A stretch of DNA of 64,000 nt, from assembly GCA_934320895.1 (NCBI GenBank), contig CAKRFY010000014.1, positions 1 through 64,000 on the forward strand, in the 5' to 3' direction. This stretch comes from an uncultured Lachnospiraceae bacterium. Its GTDB lineage: Bacteria; Bacillota; Clostridia; Lachnospirales; Lachnospiraceae. Numbering within the stretch: the stretch's first letter is position 1; each line of letters opens with the position of its first letter. The translations under genes and the position numbers were made by a program. Below the pieces are notes generated by a model. The model made no database searches, was not told the DNA's origin, and saw nothing but the letters and a program-made list of their open reading frames with translations. Shown here one piece after another: positions 11,559 through 61,641 of this stretch.

Positions 11559-11855
11559 AAAAAAACTTTCCATATAAGAAATACGGAAAGTTTTATATAT
11601 AAAGGTACCTCCCGGACTGCACTACAGTCAGGGACGGCTATTGCCGCGGTACCACCCTGATTTTCATGTGATATACACATAAACCCTTAATTTGCAGATA
11701 ACGGTCGCTGATCCGTCACTGCCTACTAAAATTCAACAGTGAAGCTCCTGTGGGAAATTCATCATAAATCGTAACATAAAGATGCTTTCAGCCGGGGACA
11801 TCTTCTCTCTAAATGAATGATATACGACTACTTTACACATTCACAGCCTTTAACG
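11559..11855 (-). promoter_or_regulatory. T-box leader (tRNA-Phe sensing) of pheST
   Basis: On the minus strand the leader shows an AGAGAGAAGATG box, a stem I whose 3' side carries GAATTTCCC (the TTC within it would be the Phe specifier codon), a stem III (GCAGTGACGG / CCGTTATCTGC) and the nearly universal T-box sequence GGTGGTACCGCGG (11644-11656). It ends in a terminator stem AAAACTTTCC/GGAAAGTTTT (11562-11594) followed by T's. Uncharged tRNA-Phe binding should favour the antiterminator and allow pheS-pheT transcription. The specifier assignment is inferred from the downstream genes. Confidence 0.9.
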
Positions 11856-48239: not shown

Positions 48240-49274
48240 TTATTTTAAGAATTTGTCTATATTACTTTTTTCAACTTTTTTGTATTGGGACACATAGTAT
48301 TTTTCTTGTTGTAAATTATGTTTTTCCAAACTATTTCCCTGAAAAATATCAACTACCAATCGTGAGATTTCTAACGCCTGATCCTCTTTGTCGTTGTATA
48401 CAGTCCCCTGTATTTCTCCATTCTTTATTGCCTCTAACGCATCATCCAAACCATCAATGCCAAAAATGATCGGCCACTGTTTTTTGTCATATCTTGATTT
48501 CTTATATACTTCCAAAGCTCCTAACGCCATTTCATCATTATTGGATATTATCATTTCAATCTTGTCACCATACTGTTTAATTAATTGATTTGTTCTGTTT
48601 TCTGCCTGTCCCCTATTCCAATCCGCAAACTGATAACTTAGTTTTTCTAATTTTATGCCTTTACCTATAATTGTTTTTACAGAACAATCTGTTCTGCTTA
48701 TGGCATCCTGATGTCCGGCTTCACCTTCCAGTAATACATATTGAATTTTTCCATCATGGTTTTTATCAACTTCTTTATTCTTTTTAATGTATTTTGCTGC
48801 TATCTGCCCCTGAATTTTACCTGACTGTTCAGCATTGCTACCGACATAATAAAGTTTGTCCCATTGTTTCAAATCCTCTCTAACCGGTTCCCTGTTAAAG
48901 AAAATAATTGGTATATTACTTTGCCTTGCCATTTTGATGATTTTAGATGGTTCCGTTCTATCTACCAAATTTACGCACATTATATCGCACCCCGCATCGA
49001 TCATTTCTTCAACAGCTTCATTTTGGTCTCTTTGATCATTATCACCATTTATTTCAGATACCATTATTTTCATATTCTTTTTTTCCAGAGTCTTTAAGTT
49101 TTCTTTTAACCGTTCTTTTAATGCATTTATAAAAGGATCATCCTGAGTATATGTTACAATTCCTACTCTAAGCAGGCTCTTTTTCTCTTCTTTATCATTT
49201 CCACAACCGCAAATATTACAGACTAAAATCATTAACAAGATCATACCTGTAACAATCTTCTTTTTCTTATTCAT
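48240..49274 (-). CDS. Galactose/glucose-binding lipoprotein, MglB-like, normal topology (probable sensor accessory)
   Basis: 344 residues. A lipoprotein signal with lipobox ICGC is followed by a complete type I periplasmic-binding fold in the normal order: RVGIVTYTQDDPFINALKER first, PIIFFNREP in the middle. Hexose-site residues of MglB are all visible: Asp and Phe in TQDDPF, His/Asp/Arg in GEAGHQDAISRT, Asn/Asp in ISNNDEMALG, Asp in FGIDGLDDAL, and a calcium loop DKNHDGKIQ. It lies behind the regulator, kinase and a second binding protein, overlapping the latter by 8 bases, and away from the ABC genes. I infer a sensing rather than transport role. Confidence 0.85.
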   Translation of the reverse strand: MNKKKKIVTGMILLMILVCNICGCGNDKEEKKSLLRVGIVTYTQDDPFINALKERLKENLKTLEKKNMKIMVSEINGDNDQRDQNEAVEEMIDAGCDIMCVNLVDRTEPSKIIKMARQSNIPIIFFNREPVREDLKQWDKLYYVGSNAEQSGKIQGQIAAKYIKKNKEVDKNHDGKIQYVLLEGEAGHQDAISRTDCSVKTIIGKGIKLEKLSYQFADWNRGQAENRTNQLIKQYGDKIEMIISNNDEMALGALEVYKKSRYDKKQWPIIFGIDGLDDALEAIKNGEIQGTVYNDKEDQALEISRLVVDIFQGNSLEKHNLQQEKYYVSQYKKVEKSNIDKFLK

Positions 49275-50220
49275 ATGAGTATAAAAACCTTTCCATATCA
49301 GTAGTAAATAAATCTCTCTTATGCACTATTTTATGTTCCACATTAATACTTTTCATTACATAAAAAGGATGGTTTAATCTTTCAGAGATTTCCTTAACAC
49401 TTTTATACCCTATTTCATAACCATCAGGAATCACCGTACATTCTACTTTCCCATAATCCACAAGGACCAGAGATTCAACATCGCTTCCTACACCATATAT
49501 TTTTGCACCGCTATACGAATCTTCCCTTGCATTTTCGCCCAAATTATCTAACAAATAGCTGTCTAGCACTACCATTGCATCAACTTTACTCTTACGATTC
49601 ACTATTTTCCAAATATTTTTATTCTCTATACCGTTATATTTCCATGCAACTTTCATTCCACTGTCTTTTATTGCATCTTGAAATCCCTTGTATCTGTCAA
49701 CGGTTTCTTCTTTTTCTTCCTGCCCTAATACAACACCTATTTTATTTATTGATTTTCCAACCATTTCTCTTCCAAGGCTATAGCCAATTTTATAATTATC
49801 TGGCTTTATTACAGGGTATTCGGATTTTTTATTTTCTCCCAAATAAACATCATCAGTTACTAATATAAAAGGCTTGTCCCCACAAATAGTCTTCATTTCT
49901 GTTTTTGTGTTCCTTCCCGGAGCCGGACTTATTATAAAAGCATCAACTTTATTCTCTATTTGTTCATTAATTAATTCTTTTTGATCGTCTATGTTATTGA
50001 TTTCATTAGTATTGCATATGATCAAATGAATATTATTGACTTTGGCTGACTCTTTTAATCCTTTTATGAAAGAATCCCAATTTTTGTCACCGAAATTTTG
50101 TACGATTACTGCAACTCTCTTTTCCATTTCGTTTTGGTCAAACATTTTCATAACGAAAAAAAGCGCCAATACACACAATATAATTTCTGTAGCAAGAAAG
50201 ATAACTTTATTTTTTTTCAT
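49267..50220 (-). CDS. Membrane-anchored periplasmic-binding-like sensor protein
   Basis: 317 residues. N-terminal hydrophobic anchor (about 5-25, no lipobox cysteine) followed by a type I periplasmic-binding domain (VAVIVQNFGDKNWDSFIKGLK, DAFIISPAPG, FILVTDDVYLG, DAMVVLDSYLL, VECTVIPDGYEIGYKSV). It lacks the clear hexose residues of the neighbouring MglB-like protein, so its ligand is unknown. The closest precedent is XylFII-like anchored binding proteins that dock on LytS-type kinases in clostridia. It overlaps the kinase gene by 14 bases; AGGAAGG spacing favours the ATG at 50220 over 50226. Co-transcription with the kinase is nearly certain. Confidence 0.8.
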   Translation of the reverse strand: MKKNKVIFLATEIILCVLALFFVMKMFDQNEMEKRVAVIVQNFGDKNWDSFIKGLKESAKVNNIHLIICNTNEINNIDDQKELINEQIENKVDAFIISPAPGRNTKTEMKTICGDKPFILVTDDVYLGENKKSEYPVIKPDNYKIGYSLGREMVGKSINKIGVVLGQEEKEETVDRYKGFQDAIKDSGMKVAWKYNGIENKNIWKIVNRKSKVDAMVVLDSYLLDNLGENAREDSYSGAKIYGVGSDVESLVLVDYGKVECTVIPDGYEIGYKSVKEISERLNHPFYVMKSINVEHKIVHKRDLFTTDMERFLYSYE

Positions 50221-52090
50221 TTTCATCCTTCCTTTCTACACTTTTCTCCTCCAGTTTGTTCTGATTTTCACTATTAAACGGGATTGCCGGTATATGTATT
50301 GTAACTTTTGTTCCCTCGTCAGCTTCACTTTCAACTTTAAGTCCATATTTTTCACCAAACATCAACTGAATTCTGTTATGAACATTTATTACACCTACAC
50401 CTGAACCGTGTTTCGGAACTTTGCTATTATCCGTAAGAATATTTTCTACTACTTCCTCTCTCATACCAATTCCATTATCTTCCACGGATATATATATATC
50501 ATTCTCAATCTTTCTTCCCGTAACAATTATCATTCCGTCTTCGTCCACATCCATGTCGCCTACACCATAATATATTGCATTTTCTAATAGTGGCTGTATT
50601 ACTAACTTGACAATACAGTAATCATTAATTTCCTCATCTATATCAAACTTAATGCCAAATCTCTCCTTGTATCTTACCAGCTGAATGCTCATGTAACTTT
50701 TACTGTGTTGTATTTCGTCGGCTATTTTTATTATTGTTTTTCCTTTTGACAAACTGATTCTAAGTAATTTTGCCAACTCCGAAATCATCAATACCGCTTC
50801 CGTATTTCTTTTTGCCTCTACCATCCATGTAATTGATTCTAATGTGTTATATAAAAAATGTGGATTTATCTGGCTTTGCAATGCTGCTAATTCACTTTTT
50901 CTTCTTTGCGTCTGCTGTTTAATAATCTCGTCCGTTAATTCCTCAATCCGTTCATATGATTTCTGAACTGAATATCCCAAATGTCGTATTTCTGATGAGC
51001 CTCCAACATAAATATCATTTTTACCACCTACTTCATAAACTTTAACCGATTCATCTAATTCTCGAATAGGTTTTGAAATTCTTTTTGAAATAAATCTATT
51101 TACAACCAAAAGCATAATCAACAATATTATGATTGTTATTACAATATAATATCTAAACTGATTCATGATCATAATCTGTGTGCTTTCTGGCACAACCCCT
51201 ACAACTTTCCAACCTGTATATGCCATATTGCTTATAACATAATTTGCTTTTCTTCCATTTAATTTAAGCTCATATATTCCTTCTTCATATGAAGCTATTT
51301 CTTTACTGTTTTCAGTTATTTTTTTTCTGTCAATTTCTGTTTTTCTAGGGTGATAAATAATATTGCCGCTGCCATCGCATAAATAATAGTATATACCATT
51401 AGATTTTCCGTTAATTCTTTCAAACGCTTCTTCTATAACTGAATACTTCATATCTACCAATAATACTCCGCTTGTCGGTTCTTCACCATCATTTATATCG
51501 ACTGAACGGCTAAGAGAAACAACCCAATTATATTTATATGTTCCATCCATAAAAATATTTTGTAAATGTGGCATAGAAAAATGAATATTCTCTATTTCCT
51601 TTTTTGCATTATAAAACCAAGCCTGTTTTTTTATTTCTATGTTATTTTTTTCTGACGATATTGGTTCTGATGCCATAAGTTTTCCATCATTATCGTATAA
51701 AACCAAGCTTTGAATTTTGTCAGAGTTTGTTTCATAAAGCAAACTAAACTGATCATTAAATTCCTGACTTGAAACATCATATTGCTGAACAATGTTATAA
51801 TTTGCTGCATTTGAAATCTGCCTGATATTGTACAAATCTGAATTCATTTTTTCCACTACACTATCTACTATTCCTTCAGTGCTTGATATATTTGTTTCTT
51901 TAACTGACATTTTAAACCTATTATAGATCAACAACCCCATAACAATAGTGATTATAATCGTAAGCATAGTTAGAACAGTCATTATTATTGACTGTATATC
52001 AAGACCTATGAATTCCCCTTTGTTAAACCATTTTTTTGTTCTTCCATTATCAATCTTTTTCCCGCCTGTTTTACTTTTATTTTTCAACAT
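50207..52090 (-). CDS. Sensor histidine kinase, LytS/YesM family
   Basis: 627 residues. TM1 about 34-57, an extracellular dCACHE-like domain about 60-305, TM2 about 314-333, HAMP about 330-385, then the His_kinase domain with the phosphoacceptor His411 in QSQINPHFLYNTLES, and the ATPase domain with N-box PLLENAIYYGV, G1 EDNGIGM and G2 GSGVGVINVHNR. It should phosphorylate the adjacent AraC-type response regulator in answer to an external signal, probably a sugar presented by the two binding proteins encoded just downstream. The stop overlaps the next gene; it lies 17 bases after the regulator. Confidence 0.93.
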   Translation of the reverse strand: MLKNKSKTGGKKIDNGRTKKWFNKGEFIGLDIQSIIMTVLTMLTIIITIVMGLLIYNRFKMSVKETNISSTEGIVDSVVEKMNSDLYNIRQISNAANYNIVQQYDVSSQEFNDQFSLLYETNSDKIQSLVLYDNDGKLMASEPISSEKNNIEIKKQAWFYNAKKEIENIHFSMPHLQNIFMDGTYKYNWVVSLSRSVDINDGEEPTSGVLLVDMKYSVIEEAFERINGKSNGIYYYLCDGSGNIIYHPRKTEIDRKKITENSKEIASYEEGIYELKLNGRKANYVISNMAYTGWKVVGVVPESTQIMIMNQFRYYIVITIIILLIMLLVVNRFISKRISKPIRELDESVKVYEVGGKNDIYVGGSSEIRHLGYSVQKSYERIEELTDEIIKQQTQRRKSELAALQSQINPHFLYNTLESITWMVEAKRNTEAVLMISELAKLLRISLSKGKTIIKIADEIQHSKSYMSIQLVRYKERFGIKFDIDEEINDYCIVKLVIQPLLENAIYYGVGDMDVDEDGMIIVTGRKIENDIYISVEDNGIGMREEVVENILTDNSKVPKHGSGVGVINVHNRIQLMFGEKYGLKVESEADEGTKVTIHIPAIPFNSENQNKLEEKSVERKDENEKK

Positions 52091-52107
52091 TCCATTCCTA
52101 CATATAT

Positions 52108-53712
52108 TTATGATTTTAATTTTGCTTTTCTATATTTAGATGGTGAAATTCCAAATTTTTTTTTGAATACATAACTGAAATAATTTGCATCCATATAACC
52201 AACCATTTCACCAATCTTGTAACTTTTCTCATTTGTATCCAAAATCAATCTTGCCGCAATGTCCATTCTGTAATCTGTTAAATAAGAAACAAAAGATATT
52301 CCTGTTTCCTTTTTAAATACAGAAGAAAAATATGAATTAGACACTCCCATTATTGAGCAAACCTTATTCAAAGATAAATCTTCTTCCATGTATCTGTCTG
52401 CGACAATATTTTTTGCATCATTTATTAATCTTCGCGATTTACTGATTCGCACATTTTTCAATTGTTTTCCTATTTCTGTAGAAACTTTCACAATCCATTT
52501 TTTTAATGTATTTTCATCCATATTAGGCACTTTTTCATATGGATTGCTCATTTCCCCAAGAAAATCATTAAAGTCAATAAAATTATTTTCACAAAATCTG
52601 TAAAAACCTCCTACCATTTCCATTGTGTATAGCTTATATTGGCTAACTGTATTGGAATTACTATGTATTCTGTCAACTTCCCTGTTTGTTGTATCCTCTA
52701 TTGCCTTTTCGTTTCCTAAATAAATAGCCTTAAACAATTCATGCATCTTTATTTCTTCTGACTGTAACCCCATATTTTGTTTATTTAATGTTATTTCATC
52801 AATGTTTATAGCTCTCTTTGTTCCGTACAACACCCTATATGATACAGCTTCTCTTGCTCCATCATAAGAATTATTAATATTCAATATGGTGTCATATACC
52901 ATACCAATACCTGCAGTTACTACTGCTCCGATCACCCTGTTAACCCACTTGCAGAACTTATCGCAGGCATCGGTAAGCTCTACTGTCTCTTCCTTTGATT
53001 TCAACTCTATGATAAGAACTGTATTTCCTAAATATATAAATTCCCTACACTTGAATTTTTCCACTATTCTTGCTTTTATTTCTCTCTCAACTGACATAGA
53101 TAATAATAATGGTGACATTTCTTCCGGAACATTATTTTCTGAAGTGTGAAAAACTGCACAGCAAAAATACGGTCCCTTTAAATCTATCTTGTACACCTGT
53201 AAAAATTTTTTATATTCACTTTCATTAACTCTTCCCTCTATTAATGAAACAAAAAAGTTAGCCTGAATAATTGGCAAAACATCATTGAAATAATTTTCAA
53301 GCTTTTGAACATTTAATTTTTCTTCTCTTTCTTTGTCCAAAGAATTCTTAACACGTTTAAGACATTCTGACAATTCAATTGCGTTAATTGGTTTAAGCAT
53401 ATATTCATCTACTTCAAGATGTACCGCCTCTTTTGCATACTCAAACTCATCAAACCCCGTAAAAATAATTACATGCACATTTCTGTATTCATCATTTAAC
53501 CTTTTTGATAATTCTAAGCCATCCATATATGGCATTCTTATGTCAGTTATAACTATATCGGGTTGCAATTTTTCTACCAGTTCCAATGCCTTTACTCCAT
53601 TTGTTGCACTACCTACAATCTGTAGATCTAATTGTTCCCAAGATATTCTGTTTTTAATGGCTTGAATTACTACTTCTTCATCATCAACCAAAATAACTTT
53701 ATACTTATCCAT
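52108..53712 (-). CDS. Response regulator, YesN/AraC type
   Basis: 534 residues. Receiver domain 1-120 with acidic pair Asp10/Asp11, phosphoacceptor Asp57 (PDIVITDIRMP) and Lys in YMLKPINA; a middle region of about 300 residues typical of YesN proteins; C-terminal double helix-turn-helix of the AraC class (SLNKVCSIMGVSNSYFSSVFKKETG and GEMVGYMDANYFSYVFKKKF). Predicted to activate the mgl operon, whose genes lie directly upstream but are separated by a terminator; the target is inferred from position. First gene of the regulator-kinase-binding-protein operon. Confidence 0.93.
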   Translation of the reverse strand: MDKYKVILVDDEEVVIQAIKNRISWEQLDLQIVGSATNGVKALELVEKLQPDIVITDIRMPYMDGLELSKRLNDEYRNVHVIIFTGFDEFEYAKEAVHLEVDEYMLKPINAIELSECLKRVKNSLDKEREEKLNVQKLENYFNDVLPIIQANFFVSLIEGRVNESEYKKFLQVYKIDLKGPYFCCAVFHTSENNVPEEMSPLLLSMSVEREIKARIVEKFKCREFIYLGNTVLIIELKSKEETVELTDACDKFCKWVNRVIGAVVTAGIGMVYDTILNINNSYDGAREAVSYRVLYGTKRAINIDEITLNKQNMGLQSEEIKMHELFKAIYLGNEKAIEDTTNREVDRIHSNSNTVSQYKLYTMEMVGGFYRFCENNFIDFNDFLGEMSNPYEKVPNMDENTLKKWIVKVSTEIGKQLKNVRISKSRRLINDAKNIVADRYMEEDLSLNKVCSIMGVSNSYFSSVFKKETGISFVSYLTDYRMDIAARLILDTNEKSYKIGEMVGYMDANYFSYVFKKKFGISPSKYRKAKLKS

Positions 53713-53876: not shown

Positions 53877-55529
53877 TTATTTTTTCTGTACATATTTAAG
53901 ACAGTCAAGTGTTACTGCTGCAAGGATGATAATACCTTCAAAAATAAACTGAAGGTTTGTATCAATTCCAAGAATTGTAAGTGAATATGTAAGAGAAGTG
54001 AAAATAAGTACACCTGTTACTACACCTGAAATCTTTCCAATACCACCTGTAAATGATACACCACCAACTACACATGCCGCAATTGCATCCATATCCCATC
54101 CTTGACCATATGCTGCACTACCCGAACCTACCATTCTGTTACATTCAAGCCATGAGCCAAATCCGTAAAGAATACCTGCAAGAATGAAAGCTCCCAAAGT
54201 CACCTTAAATACTGAAATACCTGAAACCGCTGCTGCTTCCGGATTTCCACCTACCGCAAACAAATTCTTTCCAAAAGTTGTTTTGTTCCAAATAAACCAC
54301 ACAATTGCTATAGCGACTATTGCCCAAAGTATAATTGTTGGGAAACCACCTATTTGAGGAATAAAAATATTAGGGATTGATGCGTCAATTGCACCAAATG
54401 AAACACCTTTTGTTGCATATGTAACTAAACCAAAGATGATAAGCATATTAGCCATTGTCGAAATAAATGGATGCATCTTAAATTTAGCCATAAAGAAGCC
54501 TGCTATCATAGAAAAGAATGTTGTCAAGATAACGCAAACAACCAATGCCAATATTGCTCTTGATACAGGACTCATACTTGAAAAATCAAATATATGACCA
54601 AATACTCCGCCTGTATTAACACCACTATGCATTATTATGGTCGACGCTACCATGCCCATACCAACCATACGACCAACAGAAAGATCTGTTCCTGTTAAAA
54701 GAATCAATCCCGCAACACCAAGAGCTAAGAACATTCTAGGGGAAGCCTGTTGTAAAATGTTAAGTATATTTGTGTATGTAAGCAACTGTGTATTTTTTAC
54801 TATTGGAGTTATTGCACATAATCCAATAAATATTAGAACAATAACAATATATAATCCATTCTTGTAAAGGAATTGTGACAAATTAAATGAATACTTGTAG
54901 TTCTCTATACTCTGCGCTCTCTTTTGAGCAAATGTATACTTTGACATTCGTAACAAATCAATTAAATGATACTTATGTAAAAATGCATCATGTTTTCTGT
55001 CCTTGATCTCCTGACACTTTGACTCATGTGACATTTTGGCATCATATAATTTATTTTTGTAAACATATTTTTCATCTCTAATTTCATCCGAATCGGATAA
55101 TGCACTTAACCGTGCTGTATGTTCTTCTTTTAATATTGCACATTTTTTTTCATACTCTTTGTTTTCAGCCTCTTTTTCAGCCTCACAACTATTAACTACT
55201 TTATTGTAATATAGGCTGTTGTATTTTTCTGAAAGATAATTTTCAGCTTCGGCAATTAATTTTTTCACCTTATCTTTATTGCGACTTTCAATTGCTTTTG
55301 CCTCTTCTAATGCTTTCTTATCACTTTCAATAATTTTTACTTTTTCTTCTTTTGATAGATTTTTACTTTCTTTTACAACTGCAATATGGTTCTTCAAGCT
55401 CCTAACTTTATCCGTACCATCTAGACGTAAAGCATCTATCTGCTCCTGTATTTTTCCTATATATTCATCTATGGGCTCACGAAGTTTTAACTCTTCTTCA
55501 GCCGAAAGAACAAAACCTTTTTCTGCCAT
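53877..55529 (-). CDS. mglC: Galactose/methylgalactoside ABC permease with long cytoplasmic N-terminal extension
   Basis: 550 residues. Residues from about 225 on form the MglC/RbsC-type permease with eight to ten membrane segments; GVAGLILLTGTDLSVGR, the EAA-like NKTTFGKNLFAVGGNPEAAAVSGI loop and CVVGGVSFTGGIGK are family signatures. The first 220 residues are unusual: highly charged, Lys/Glu-rich and heptad-like (for example IESDKKALEEAKAIESRNKDK split over 69-86), without a membrane segment, thus a predicted cytoplasmic coiled coil. Ordinary MglC is about 330-400 residues. Last gene of mglB-mglA-mglC, 17 bases after mglA. Confidence 0.93.
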   Translation of the reverse strand: MAEKGFVLSAEEELKLREPIDEYIGKIQEQIDALRLDGTDKVRSLKNHIAVVKESKNLSKEEKVKIIESDKKALEEAKAIESRNKDKVKKLIAEAENYLSEKYNSLYYNKVVNSCEAEKEAENKEYEKKCAILKEEHTARLSALSDSDEIRDEKYVYKNKLYDAKMSHESKCQEIKDRKHDAFLHKYHLIDLLRMSKYTFAQKRAQSIENYKYSFNLSQFLYKNGLYIVIVLIFIGLCAITPIVKNTQLLTYTNILNILQQASPRMFLALGVAGLILLTGTDLSVGRMVGMGMVASTIIMHSGVNTGGVFGHIFDFSSMSPVSRAILALVVCVILTTFFSMIAGFFMAKFKMHPFISTMANMLIIFGLVTYATKGVSFGAIDASIPNIFIPQIGGFPTIILWAIVAIAIVWFIWNKTTFGKNLFAVGGNPEAAAVSGISVFKVTLGAFILAGILYGFGSWLECNRMVGSGSAAYGQGWDMDAIAACVVGGVSFTGGIGKISGVVTGVLIFTSLTYSLTILGIDTNLQFIFEGIIILAAVTLDCLKYVQKK

Positions 55530-55546: not shown

Positions 55547-57055
55547 TTACAAATACTTAGCACTAAGTCTTAGTAATTCTTCCTGATTTGTTTCTTTTGT
55601 ATTAACTATTCCTGCAAGATGTCCGTTAGACATAACCCCTATTCTATTAGTTATACCTAGAATTTCTGGCATTTCGGATGAAACAACAATAATTGTTTTT
55701 CCCTGCTTTGCCATATTGATAATCAATTCGTATATTTCATACTTTGCTCCGACATCGATACCTCTTGTCGGATCGTCCATCATAAAAATATTAGGTGAAC
55801 GTTCAAGCCATCTACCGAATATTACTTTCTGCTGATTACCACCTGAAAGGCTTGTAATCATATCATCAGGTCCCATACACTTAGTGTGCATAACTTTGAT
55901 TTCATTTGCCGTTGTACGAACCATTTCATCTTTAGATAACGCTACTCCCTTTTTATAATGGTTCATGTTTGCAATAGTAGTATTAAACGTAATGTCTCCC
56001 TTTAGGAATAATCCATTAGCCTTTCTTTCTTCTGTTATAAGTGCAAATCCATGATCCATTGCATCTTTGGTCGACGTGAAATTCATTATTTTGCCATCAT
56101 AGATCACATTTCCTGCTGCTCTTGTACGCATTCCAAATATCGTTTCGAGCAATTCTGTTCTTCCTGCACCTACAAGTCCATATAATCCAAAAATTTCTCC
56201 TTTTCGTATATCAAAAGATATATTTTGAAGTTTTGGTGCATATTTAGTAGATAAATTTTTCACTGAGAAAATAATTTCTCCCGGTTCATTATCCACAGGT
56301 GGAAATCTGTTATCAAGTGAACGTCCAACCATTGCTGATATAAGTTCGTTCATATCTGTATCTTTACTATCTTTTGTCATAACAAGGCTTCCATCTCGCA
56401 AAACTGAAACCTGATCACAAATTTCAAATATTTCATCCATTTTGTGTGATATGTATATTAATGAAATGCCCTGTGTTTTCAATTGTCTCATCATTTTGAA
56501 CAACTTTTCAACTTCCGGTGCTGTAAGGGATGATGTAGGCTCGTCAAGTACGATTACTTTTGAATTATATGATATAGCTTTTGCGATTTCACACATCTGT
56601 CTTTGTGATACGGACATTTTCTTCATCGGCTGAGTCATATTCACTGTAATTCCAAGTTTTCTAAATAAGTCTGAAGCTTCTTTTTTCATTCTTCCTTCAT
56701 CAACTACACCTATTGAATTTCTGGGATACCTTCCCAAAAATAAATTATCTACAACACTTCTCTCAAGACATTGATTGAGTTCCTGATGTACCATTGCCAC
56801 ACCATTTTCCAATGCTTCTTTCGGACCTGAAAAGTTTACTTCTTTCCCATCTAAGATTATAGTTCCTTCGTCCTTTTGATAAGTTCCGAAGAGACATTTC
56901 ATCATTGTCGATTTTCCGGCTCCGTTTTCACCCATAAGTCCCATAATAGAACCCGGTTTAACATTTAAACTAATATGTTTTAAAACCTTATTTCGGCCAA
57001 ATGATTTGCTCATTCCATTAATCGACAAGATATATTCATTTTTATCTCCTGCCAT
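55547..57055 (-). CDS. mglA: Galactose/methylgalactoside ABC ATP-binding protein
   Basis: 502 residues with two fused ABC domains, as in MglA/RbsA. The first has Walker A GENGAGKSTMMK, signature MSVSQRQMCEIAKA and Walker B VIVLDEPTSSL; the second has a degenerate Walker A GLVGAGRTELLE, signature LSGGNQQKVIFGRW and Walker B IFMMDDPTRGIDVG. It powers the MglC permease. Separated from mglB by 81 bases with a hairpin. Confidence 0.96.
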   Translation of the reverse strand: MAGDKNEYILSINGMSKSFGRNKVLKHISLNVKPGSIMGLMGENGAGKSTMMKCLFGTYQKDEGTIILDGKEVNFSGPKEALENGVAMVHQELNQCLERSVVDNLFLGRYPRNSIGVVDEGRMKKEASDLFRKLGITVNMTQPMKKMSVSQRQMCEIAKAISYNSKVIVLDEPTSSLTAPEVEKLFKMMRQLKTQGISLIYISHKMDEIFEICDQVSVLRDGSLVMTKDSKDTDMNELISAMVGRSLDNRFPPVDNEPGEIIFSVKNLSTKYAPKLQNISFDIRKGEIFGLYGLVGAGRTELLETIFGMRTRAAGNVIYDGKIMNFTSTKDAMDHGFALITEERKANGLFLKGDITFNTTIANMNHYKKGVALSKDEMVRTTANEIKVMHTKCMGPDDMITSLSGGNQQKVIFGRWLERSPNIFMMDDPTRGIDVGAKYEIYELIINMAKQGKTIIVVSSEMPEILGITNRIGVMSNGHLAGIVNTKETNQEELLRLSAKYL

Positions 57056-57136: not shown

Positions 57137-58432
57137 CTAGTTTGAAAGAATTGATGTATATGAAGCCGCATTATCCGTTTTAACCATATTAATTGCAAAT
57201 GCATCGTATTCACTTGGGTTACCTAAACGGTTTGTAATATTTGATTCTGTCTGACCATCACCACCAATGTAATCAACTTTCAAGTTAAGAAGGTCATCAT
57301 ATTTTTCAAGCAGTGGCTGATATGTTGAACTAAGGAAGTTATCTGATGCATTGTAAATATTAAGCCATACTTTCTTTTCAGGACTCTTACTTGCATCAAG
57401 CTGCTTGGAAACCTTATCATAAATCTTTGTTGAATCCGTAAAGTCTTTGTAATTTTCTTCTGTTACGGCTACATTTAATGCATAATATGATCTTTCTTCT
57501 TCACTGTATCTGTAATCTTCATCTTTTGTAAGGCAATTTCCTGCATCATCCGCTGTACCTATACCTGTATCAACATCTACGCCATCAAGTGCATTGCGAA
57601 GAACTCTAAGTGTCAGATATGCCTGTACATCTGCGTGCTGTGAAATTGTTCCGCCGTATCCTTCTGCAATTGCTGCAACTGCATCGCTGTTAGCATCATA
57701 TCCGAATGTTGGAACTTTGTTGTCTTTTGCCCATGCATTGAACATTGACATTCCCATACCATCGTTATTAGAAACAACTATATCAATTTGTTTACCAAAT
57801 GATGCAGTCCATGTTCCAATGGCATTACCGGCAGTTGCTGCATCCCATGTTGCCCCTGCTGAATTTTTCATTTCCTGTGAAGCAAGTTCTCTTATTGTAT
57901 ATGTTTTTCCATTTACTTCTAACTTCGCATCCTTTACTACTTTAGATTTTCCGTCTACATTTGTTCCAGCCGGCTTTGATTCAACACTTCCGTTCTTTTC
58001 TACTGCCGTTCCAAGTTGAGAACGAACACCACATGTACGTGCTATCGAATCATTGTGTCCGATATCGCCAATTGCAAGCACATATCCGATTACACCATCT
58101 CCATTTCTGTCAATTTCATCAATATGCTTTTTAATATATTCAAGGACCATCTTTCCTTGAAGTTCTGCACCCTGATTAGCATCAAATCCTACATAATATG
58201 TGTCTTTATTAAATGTAAGAGCTGTCTTGTCAAGTTCACCTGTTGAACTGTTTGACGGCTGACGGTTATACCAACATAAAGGTTTATCCTTATTTGCCAC
58301 AGTTTTTTCTGCATTACCTCCATTGTTTCCACTATTCCCGTTACTTGCATTTCCACCTGATGAACCACATCCTACCATTGATAAACTAAGTGCTGCTACT
58401 ACTAACATTGTTAATAATTTTGATTTTCTCAT
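57137..58432 (-). CDS. mglB: Glucose/galactose-binding lipoprotein, circularly permuted MglB
   Basis: 431 residues. Signal peptide with lipobox MVGC (Cys22), a Gly/Asn/Ser linker (23-45), then a type I periplasmic-binding fold in permuted order. Residues 50-59 (KPLCWYNRQP) match what is normally the middle of the protein (PIIFFNREP in the 48240-49274 neighbour), and residues 353-431 (KKVWLNIYNASDNFLSS and onward) match the normal N-terminus (RVGIVTYTQDDPFINA). Sugar-site residues persist: Asp364 and Phe366, His126/Asp128/Arg132, Asn222/Asp224, Asp246; calcium loop DRNGDGVIG at 108-116. An extra insert of about 60 residues lies at 145-205. First gene of mglB-mglA-mglC. A permuted MglB is, to my recollection, known in Treponema pallidum. 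Confidence 0.93.
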   Translation of the reverse strand: MRKSKLLTMLVVAALSLSMVGCGSSGGNASNGNSGNNGGNAEKTVANKDKPLCWYNRQPSNSSTGELDKTALTFNKDTYYVGFDANQGAELQGKMVLEYIKKHIDEIDRNGDGVIGYVLAIGDIGHNDSIARTCGVRSQLGTAVEKNGSVESKPAGTNVDGKSKVVKDAKLEVNGKTYTIRELASQEMKNSAGATWDAATAGNAIGTWTASFGKQIDIVVSNNDGMGMSMFNAWAKDNKVPTFGYDANSDAVAAIAEGYGGTISQHADVQAYLTLRVLRNALDGVDVDTGIGTADDAGNCLTKDEDYRYSEEERSYYALNVAVTEENYKDFTDSTKIYDKVSKQLDASKSPEKKVWLNIYNASDNFLSSTYQPLLEKYDDLLNLKVDYIGGDGQTESNITNRLGNPSEYDAFAINMVKTDNAASYTSILSN

Positions 58433-58813: not shown

Positions 58814-61483
58814 TTATTTAACTTTTACTTTACAGAACTTAACTTTCTCCTGCTGAGCAATGTATACAGCAATAATTGCTGTTCCTTTCTTCTTGGCATG
58901 CACTACACCTGCTGCATCAATCTCGGCAACCTTTTTATCTGAAGACTCATAACAGATATTAGGATTATATACCTTCGCAGGTAATAATGTAACATTTAAT
59001 TTTTCTGACTTACCTTTCTTTAATGTCATACTTGTCTTGCTCAACTTAAAATCTCTAAGTACAACAATTTCCTCCCATGAAACAACATGTACTTTACACT
59101 TCACTGCTTTTAATCCCTTTATCTTTGCGGTTACTGTACAAACTCCCTGATTTTGTACGGAATTTACAACACCATCTTTAACTGTAGCTATCTTCTTGTC
59201 AGATGTAGTCCACTTAATGTCAGGTGTAACTGCTCCAAGCGGCTGAACACTATACTTAATATTATACTCATCGTATGGTGTCATATATATATCCTTATAT
59301 TGGAAAACTAAGCTTTTAAGTTTATTAGCCTTTGTCTTCTTTTTCCATTTTGCATATATAGTAACTTTTTTAGCATTAAATGATGCATCACTAGAAAACT
59401 TAAGTTCATATGATTTTCCATCTATTTTCTGTTTATAATACCAGCCTTTAAAATAATATCCTTTTTTAACTGGATCTTTTGGCAGATCATTTTCAACTCC
59501 CTGTACATAATCTACAGTAGCATATGTCTTTCCATCAACCTTAAAAGTCATTTTCGTGCCTGAAGTAAATGTATCTATTGAAGAAATATTCTTGTCGATC
59601 CATGCAATTCTCTCACGGATCCACTGTTTAAATCTAGTCTCTTCTTCATCATATGTTATCTTTTTATTTGCTGTTGCAGGCAGATCTAAACCTTCACGCA
59701 CCTTCGTATCATCAAGAAATTCTTTTAAGATGTCATTATCTTCAAAAATATCTTCATAATTAGAAAACATTTTATTTACATAGTAATTTGCCTTTTGTGA
59801 AGCATACTGTTTCTTTGAATATGTGTCAATGATACCACCATCTTTTATTCCCTCAAGAAATTTTTCCTTTATATATGGCCATCTTGCTGCAAACTTGTCC
59901 CTAAATTTTTCATTAGTAAACAGCTTTGTAAACCATGGATTTCTCGACAGATGTAATCCTTTGACATTATTTCCATCAGTAAATTCTGTAGCTCCCCATG
60001 CAACATAATCAAAATCCCACAGAGGTCCCCAGTAAAGCTTGCCATTTCTCTTCTTGTAAAGATATGTACTTCCGTTGCCAAAAGCGTCACCATTTAATGA
60101 AAATTCCTGTACCCAGTAATAATCTATCGCTGAGTCAACATCAAGATACTCATCATATGAAATCCCTTTACTGTCTTTAAAATTTTTGCCAAAAATAGCA
60201 TTCTCTGTCTGCTGTACATAGTCTGATATATATTTATACTGCTCATCATTTTTATAATCTTCAAAATCAGGACTTTCTATAGCAAATGTCATTTCTTTTT
60301 CAGTATTTATATTTAACCTGTCGCTCTCCTGCTCACATGCCAGCAGATAGCCGCCCGTTATTGCAGAGCCACTTGTAATCGCTTTCGATTCGTCATCGGC
60401 AGCAAGGTCATCAATGTCTACTCTGCTTTTTCCTACTCTTACCTGTTCACATAAATAGTAACTTCCAAGATATTTACCGTTCATAACAACATTTACAAAC
60501 TCACATTTTGGAGTAAACTCAAGACCTATCGCATCCCCAAGCCAGTATGTAAATTTATTTCTAAGCATTGTCACATCATAATAGTTTGCTAGAAGTATCC
60601 AATGTTTGTTGGCACCCATACCCAAAAGATCTGCTTTTTTATCAAGTTTGAGCTTATATGGTCTTTTACTAGGTCCCCATGTGGAGTTTCCCCTCCCTCT
60701 TATATACTCAAGCTCATATGTTGCAGTCTTAAGTTCTTTATCTGTATACTCAGATTTATAACCATCCGGTATATTAAGTGTCATATTTCCATAACACTCT
60801 GTCTGATGACTCGCATCACCATTCATTGATGCTATAGGAGTCTTAGATTCATCAATATCTACATCTACTGTAGGTATGTCCTCATCAAGGAAAAACATAT
60901 ATTGTAACATGATTTTTAAATCTTTTCCCAAATAGTCTTTATCATTATTATCAGTCACTCTGAATGAAACTTTATGCTTTCCACTGATTTTTTCAACATT
61001 AAGCTTTGCACACTTATTATCGCTGAGTGTCCAGACATTTTTTCTATTCTGACTTGAAAGTTTTATCTTTGCAAAACTTTCATTAGAATCGTCAAGATAA
61101 AAAGAAACACTTACATCTCTCTTTCTCTCAGCCATTCCTAAAAGAACAAGATATCTGCTCTTTTCATTAAAATCGATCTGCTTATTTATAGTAAATTTCG
61201 TTTTTTCAAGTTCTTCCGTCTTTCCATTCACCATCAACGCAGATGCTTTCTCATACTTTGATAAAACTACATTTTCATTATCCTTACTTAAAAGTCCAGA
61301 GTCGTATAACTCTGAAAAATCTGACTTATCATCAGATTTGATCTCTTCTGATGACACATTCTCCTGCTTGCTGCCAGAGTCTTTTACTGTAACCGCTTTA
61401 GAATAATTCCCATTGCCAAATACAGTTACCAGTGACATAGCAACAGCCATAGTCATAGCTATAATTTTTTTCTTCTTCCTCAA
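58814..61483 (-). CDS. Secreted CotH-kinase-like protein with InlB-type and Ig-like repeats
   Basis: 889 residues from a TTG at 61483, seven bases after AAAGGAG (the ATG at 61504 overlaps that site). Signal peptide about 1-30. Middle (about 225-600): CotH domain, seen as YIRGRGNSTWGPSKRPYKLK, NKHWILLANYYDVTMLRNK, YYWVQEFSLNGDAFGNG and LYWGPLWDFDYVAWG; the last contains the metal-binding WDFD. CotH enzymes are atypical secreted kinases of the spore coat. After it come one InlB/Flg_new-type beta module (DPVKKGYYFKGWYYKQ) and two Ig-like (Big2) repeats ending CKVKVK. A surface or secreted protein; the substrate is unknown. Similar CotH proteins are frequent in Lachnospiraceae that adhere to plant fibre. 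Confidence 0.88.
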   Translation of the reverse strand: MRKKKKIIAMTMAVAMSLVTVFGNGNYSKAVTVKDSGSKQENVSSEEIKSDDKSDFSELYDSGLLSKDNENVVLSKYEKASALMVNGKTEELEKTKFTINKQIDFNEKSRYLVLLGMAERKRDVSVSFYLDDSNESFAKIKLSSQNRKNVWTLSDNKCAKLNVEKISGKHKVSFRVTDNNDKDYLGKDLKIMLQYMFFLDEDIPTVDVDIDESKTPIASMNGDASHQTECYGNMTLNIPDGYKSEYTDKELKTATYELEYIRGRGNSTWGPSKRPYKLKLDKKADLLGMGANKHWILLANYYDVTMLRNKFTYWLGDAIGLEFTPKCEFVNVVMNGKYLGSYYLCEQVRVGKSRVDIDDLAADDESKAITSGSAITGGYLLACEQESDRLNINTEKEMTFAIESPDFEDYKNDEQYKYISDYVQQTENAIFGKNFKDSKGISYDEYLDVDSAIDYYWVQEFSLNGDAFGNGSTYLYKKRNGKLYWGPLWDFDYVAWGATEFTDGNNVKGLHLSRNPWFTKLFTNEKFRDKFAARWPYIKEKFLEGIKDGGIIDTYSKKQYASQKANYYVNKMFSNYEDIFEDNDILKEFLDDTKVREGLDLPATANKKITYDEEETRFKQWIRERIAWIDKNISSIDTFTSGTKMTFKVDGKTYATVDYVQGVENDLPKDPVKKGYYFKGWYYKQKIDGKSYELKFSSDASFNAKKVTIYAKWKKKTKANKLKSLVFQYKDIYMTPYDEYNIKYSVQPLGAVTPDIKWTTSDKKIATVKDGVVNSVQNQGVCTVTAKIKGLKAVKCKVHVVSWEEIVVLRDFKLSKTSMTLKKGKSEKLNVTLLPAKVYNPNICYESSDKKVAEIDAAGVVHAKKKGTAIIAVYIAQQEKVKFCKVKVK

Positions 61484-61641
61484 AAAAACACTCCTTTCAA
61501 ACATATGCCAACATCAGTGTATTTATCAGCATATCCCACCTTAATATATGAGCAGCTACTTTATGCGCTCCTTAGAATATGTTAACACAGACATATTTTT
61601 GACACAATATGTTTGAAAGAAATGTAAGTAATTCTTAAAGT

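Follow-up and report, generated by a model that had tools for sequence, protein, structure and literature searches.

The gene at positions 57137-58432 (minus strand) of the window, by which we mean the whole 64,000-nucleotide stretch of Lachnospiraceae DNA analysed here, encodes, with a probability that we put at about 95%, the lipoprotein that binds solute for an MglB-MglA-MglC glucose/galactose ABC importer and belongs to the TpMglB-2 ('Type Ic') family, its anchoring, sugar and transport function being predicted. The order of its parts, its homology, the kept sugar site, the predicted fold and the gene order are established for this permuted MglB. The rotated design is already known from the solved structure of a relative, making the case mostly an ordinary one; the observations on neighbouring genes are newer. 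The plus strand over the gene is full of stops and the open frame of 431 amino acids lies on the minus strand, as do the other features of the locus:

57137..58432, minus strand: permuted glucose/galactose-binding lipoprotein (MglB, TpMglB-2 type), 431 amino acid open frame
58367..58432, minus strand: signal peptide (residues 1-22) with lipobox LSMVGC and Cys22, visible in the sequence
57437..58294, minus strand: middle-to-end of a conventional MglB (residues 47-332), PF13407; profile-profile comparison places 48-332 on conventional residues 119-343
57386..57436, minus strand: linker from old C-terminus to old N-terminus (about residues 333-349), the gap between the matched stretches
57140..57385, minus strand: moved MglB N-terminal segment (about 350-431), PF18610, with sugar-site Asp364 and Phe366
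55547..57055, minus strand: MglA-type ATPase, 502 amino acids; best match NF008215 at 674.1 bits, below its 828-bit cut-off
53877..55529, minus strand: MglC-type permease, 550 amino acids; PF02653 at 254-538, NF007014 at 216-550 with 284.6 bits, below its 386-bit cut-off
54885..55529, minus strand: MglC extension (residues 1-215), soluble and charged, found with the permuted operon
52108..53712, minus strand: AraC/YesN-type response regulator, PF00072 and PF12833
50207..52090, minus strand: dCache sensor histidine kinase, PF02743, PF06580 and PF02518
49267..50226, minus strand: SBP2, binding-protein family with the hexose site mostly lost, PF13407
48240..49274, minus strand: SBP1, sensor-module protein of the conventional MglB type, PF13407, with all 10 hexose-site residues

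The domain order given by Pfam is sufficient to make the rotation visible without any structural model. In the permuted protein, positions 94-256 of PF13407 are matched at residues 76-284 and are followed by PF18610 (Peripla_BP_7) at 352-422; in the SBP1 neighbour, PF13407 is matched in ordinary order (positions 1-257). The sequence comparisons allow the boundaries to be refined: the old C-terminus is kept to about residue 332, followed by a linker of about 17 residues and the moved part at about 350-431. With the strands numbered as in PMC4990184, the new ends are placed between the third and fourth strands of the N lobe, a clean cut. The NCBIfam MglB equivalog NF011924 scores the protein at 82.1 bits, below its curated cut-off of 420. 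Among GTDB contigs, 437 stretches encode a relative, and in the best 80 of these the match reaches query residue 427-430; since relatives carry the match through to the end of the query, the permuted order is no assembly accident.

The closest known structure is that of Treponema pallidum TpMglB-2 (Tp0684; PDB codes 5JX2, 6BGC and 6BGD), the precedent that the original prediction had named and which is described in PMC4990184. Residues 47-429 match 19-385 of 5jx2 with an E value of 9.4e-87, full-length and colinear, and the two proteins share 42-43% identity over the aligned part, the permuted order from end to end, and the residues of the sugar and calcium sites. Judged by sequence, the window protein thus belongs to the TpMglB-2 family ('Type Ic / Cluster Bc', PF18610) and has its permuted topology. 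The same colinear homology places the last segment, 353-431, where the N-terminal strands of MglB lie, as anticipated, and the order of strands in the AlphaFold2 model, structure prediction having been proposed as a check, is not the conventional one. The best of five models has a mean pLDDT of 81.6 (57.7-69.6 for the other four), with residues 1-41 lacking confident prediction and block means in the C-terminal segment dropping to 71 (361-370) and 58 (391-400); a first run with 17 close sequences gave a mean pLDDT of 53.0, too poor for use. For comparison, conventional MglB proteins (Escherichia coli/Salmonella, PDB codes 2FVY and 3GBP; T. thermosaccharolyticum, 8FXU) share the pieces of the fold, the sugar site and the operon role, but their strand order is rotated relative to the permuted protein and 219-228 residues align in sequence order.

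The published work on TpMglB-2 left it possible that the C-terminal part, at 13% identity, had been acquired from another gene (PMC4990184). The question was addressed here by profile-profile comparison, in which residues 354-419 align with positions 36-106 of the conventional neighbour, reproducing the register, KVWLNIYNASDNFLSS on RVGIVTYTQDDPFINA, that had been aligned by eye. The segment score of 22.1 was reached by 1 of 200 column shuffles (mean 13.2, s.d. 2.5) and compares with 13.4 for the reversed segment, while hhalign grades this comparison, taken alone, as weak (probability 5%, E value 0.0078). A rotation test was based on an HMM built from 50 conventional MglB sequences. Best-domain scores proved misleading (2/20 window shuffles scored higher, two domains having been merged), and whole-sequence scores were therefore used. 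The rotated protein scored 135.5 bits, against 122.6 for the natural order, 115.3 for the body alone and 115.4 with the segment reversed, so that rotation adds 20 bits over the body; none of 500 segment shuffles reached the rotated score, the best attaining 126.4. Rotation likewise raised the score over natural order in all 80 family rows (mean 14.5 bits, minimum 10.2), which are mutually related and hence do not amount to 80 independent tests; shuffled segments in these rows gave a mean of -6.2 bits and a maximum of +3.8 over 240 trials.

These results bear on two other accounts of the segment. A piece of another gene that converged on the same structural role, as raised in PMC4990184, would be compatible with the weakness of the single profile-profile comparison, but the correct register and place (1/200 shuffles as high), the 20-bit gain matched by 0/500 shuffles and the retained Asp-x-Phe pair of the sugar site speak against it, and we consider it improbable. 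Scarcely credible is an ordinary protein that merely looks permuted, its last 80 residues being an unrelated add-on domain: Pfam does give the segment a family of its own, PF18610, but the PF13407 match in the body begins only at position 94, rotation improves the score, and in crystal structures of the homologue the segment forms N-lobe strands 1-3 (PMC4990184), 5JX2 having already refuted such a reading there. The segment is, as far as sequence can tell, truly kin to the N-terminus of conventional MglB, and the rotation test is new evidence for its source. The circular permutation originally predicted is thus borne out by Pfam order, colinear homology to 5JX2 and the rotation test.

The sugar site draws on both pieces of the permuted chain, in each of which hexose-binding residues are kept, as had been noticed. 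Using the positions in Table 2 of PMC4990184, nine of ten match E. coli MglB (D364, F366, N56, H126, D128, R132, W196, N223 and D246), and the tenth, Q265, is the same as in TpMglB-2; the glucose-site and calcium-site residues of the TpMglB-2 family are present. TpMglB-2 itself differs in having Asn in place of Asp364 (PMC4990184, Table 2). All 54 gut rows are identical at the ten positions, and so are 25/26 TpMglB-2-like rows, six of the 26 being named Treponema by a source; the remaining row carries Asn in the D14 position, like TpMglB-2. By the same comparison with E. coli, SBP1 retains 10/10 hexose-site residues and SBP2 3/10.

A predicted lipoprotein signal, with lipobox LSMVGC, precedes Cys22, a residue invariant in the 17 rows of alignment A1. 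Membrane tethering has been suggested in print as having favoured the permutation (PMC4990184). By a home-made pattern, on which all the lipobox counts rest, 77 of 82 permuted frames have a lipobox; among the misses, L032 has Cys at a lipobox-like place and the frames of L019 and L020 are extended upstream. A lipobox-like signal is also present in 13/15 conventional transporter SBPs from sibling operons (one miss is a contig fragment, the other, L122, has a signal without lipobox), and among sensor proteins the pattern matches 10/14 in permuted operons and 8/19 in conventional ones. The other two of the five misses, permuted proteins of Candidatus Limivivens MAGs (L031:3738-5048 and L066:5198-6436), have signal peptides seemingly without a lipobox, an odd circumstance for a Gram-positive binding protein. 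The conventional siblings and these two proteins together weaken the tethering explanation, and speak against tethering as the sole reason for permutation. The permutation may, as had been proposed, alter the way in which the lobes face the permease or a sensor; in TpMglB-2 the N lobe contains both termini (PMC4990184), so that, by homology, the shift of the anchor would stay within one lobe.

In the permuted chain the fourth N-lobe strand comes first, the C lobe follows as far as the old C-terminus, and the linker of about 17 residues then leads back to strands 1-3, an order in which both the sugar site and the fold with its two lobes would re-form; TpMglB-2 has a fourth cross-over and an extended stretch at the place of the linker (PMC4990184). 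The presumably lipid-anchored protein would close its lobes on a sugar, probably glucose or galactose, and pass it to MglC, with MglA driving transport. Binding of D-glucose with lobe closure has been demonstrated for TpMglB-2, whose putative permease is tp0686 (PMC4990184).

An mgl operon setting had been proposed, and MglA-type and MglC-type genes indeed lie directly downstream of the permuted gene. From 58432 down, the order is permuted MglB (431 amino acids), MglA (502), MglC (550), regulator (534), kinase (627), SBP2 (319) and SBP1 (344). Of 82 permuted loci examined, 81 are distinct (L081 repeats L016). MglA follows the permuted gene in 81/82, the remaining locus stopping at a contig end, and MglC is complete in 70, as 69 single frames of 505-551 amino acids and one, in L050, split in two. 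Where at least 9 kb is available downstream, the order MglA-MglC-RR-HK-SBP2-SBP1 is found in 48 of 59 loci, part of the sensor module being missing from the other 11. Three loci (L149, L150 and L071) have the sensor module (HK, SBP1) upstream of the permuted transporter genes rather than downstream. A promoter and terminator scan found sites no more numerous than in shuffles.

At 48240-53712 an SBP gene thus adjoins kinase and regulator genes, an arrangement resembling CuaD-CuaS-CuaR of Ruminiclostridium cellulolyticum, in which a binding protein beside a kinase and regulator controls a sugar ABC importer (PMC10384115). That system responds to cellobiose, whereas the window module has an extra, site-less SBP2, which may serve as an adaptor given its position between kinase and SBP1. 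The SBP1-SBP2-kinase-regulator module probably senses the same sugar through the unpermuted SBP1 and turns the operon on. The roles might conversely be exchanged, the permuted protein acting chiefly as sensor or chemoreceptor while SBP1 feeds the permease; the complete hexose site of SBP1 and the chemoreceptor role proposed for TpMglB-2 (PMC4990184) would accord with this. MglA, however, follows the permuted gene almost invariably while SBP1 sits at the kinase end, and the SBP1 group accompanies sensor modules even where the transporter owns a conventional SBP; we regard such an exchange as very unlikely and retain the permuted protein as the binding protein of the importer.

Two clades of the TpMglB-2 family have been described, one of spirochaetes and one mainly of gut Gram-positives, relatives thus being known in Gram-positive gut bacteria (PMC4990184). 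Of 299 genomes sampled across the family to which the L016 genome (Roseburia faecis) belongs, 32 have PF18610, as do 2/299 sampled from its phylum, that genome being counted in each; some locus titles read Enterococcus, Flavonifractor or Coriobacteriaceae, labels cited as given. A quick maximum-likelihood tree of 76 rows, built on the shared body region, unites the 26 permuted ones (100*) on a long stem; they comprise one group of 18 gut rows (100*) and one of eight TpMglB-2-like rows (support 75), a pattern consistent with a single origin. A long-branched conventional row, L124, joins the permuted stem at support 90, a placement that the program warns is possibly false; with long branches meeting near the stem, it is uncertain which group is sister to the permuted one. 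SBP1 was considered as parent of the permuted MglB and rejected: it groups with sensor-associated binding proteins, a group that also accompanies conventional transporters, while the permuted rows stand apart. The SBP1 proteins from permuted operons cluster together (98*) within the sensors of conventional operons, joining L131 and L137 (99*), whose transporter proteins are conventional and distant. From this nesting, the histories of the transporter cassette and the sensor module seem to differ. Trees of HK, MglA and MglC, having no outgroup, separate the two operon types but cannot show nesting.

Unlike the TpMglB-2 entry, the permuted operon has a two-component sensor module and a long MglC extension, treponemal MglC lying outside the comparison. 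In the window MglC no membrane-like segment occurs ahead of residue 217, and of residues 1-215, 87 are charged, 3 are Gly and 1 is Pro; the extension is probably helical and cytoplasmic. It matched no Pfam family (E value up to 0.01) and no PDB chain under an E value of 0.1. The length of the 69 single-frame MglC proteins implies its presence in each, and across these relatives identity averages 54% in the extension and 84% in the core. In the 299-genome family sample it occurs in 33 genomes, the 32 with PF18610 and G416, the sole match among the 267 without PF18610 and a weak one (28%, E value 3.1e-4). It is clear in 31 of the 32, the last being cut by a contig end; G302 and G543 have a partial match close to a contig end, and in G503, where the operon spans two contigs, residues 186-215 alone are visible.

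Linkage in one operon suffices for such co-occurrence, and the informative part is therefore the contrast with conventional operons. Genomes without PF18610 often show the same operon layout with a conventional SBP. From 150 genomes, 18 conventional-operon stretches were picked, 17 of which hold an MglC-like permease; the extension is absent from all 17, their first membrane-like segment lying at residue 5-51. The pairing of extension and permuted protein and the exchange of cassettes are correlations, and might be unfamiliar to specialists: no published account of either was found in the open-licence literature, the available portions of PMC4990184 included. It is conceivable, if on balance doubtful, that permuted MglB and extended MglC are a matched pair, the cassette being swapped as a unit with conventional mglBAC beside a retained sugar-sensor module, and that the extension is a regulatory or docking arm.

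Elsewhere in the window, a CotH-kinase-like protein bearing a Listeria-Bacteroides repeat as well as Ig-like Big_2 domains is encoded just upstream of the operon (58814-61504, minus strand), and a T-box leader RNA (Rfam RF00230, 134.7 bits) lies at 11627-11853 (minus strand). Two database relatives, P0011 (525 amino acids) and P0026 (479 amino acids), have long stretches of their own sequence repeated internally, possibly assembly artefacts.

Many gut Lachnospiraceae therefore have the TpMglB-2-type permutation of MglB in their mgl operon, and the source of the moved segment now has sequence evidence. The linked permease extension offers a testable lead: were the matched pair real, an arm that, for example, docks a cytosolic control protein would be a new mode of importer control, and the extension may have been co-selected with the permuted topology.
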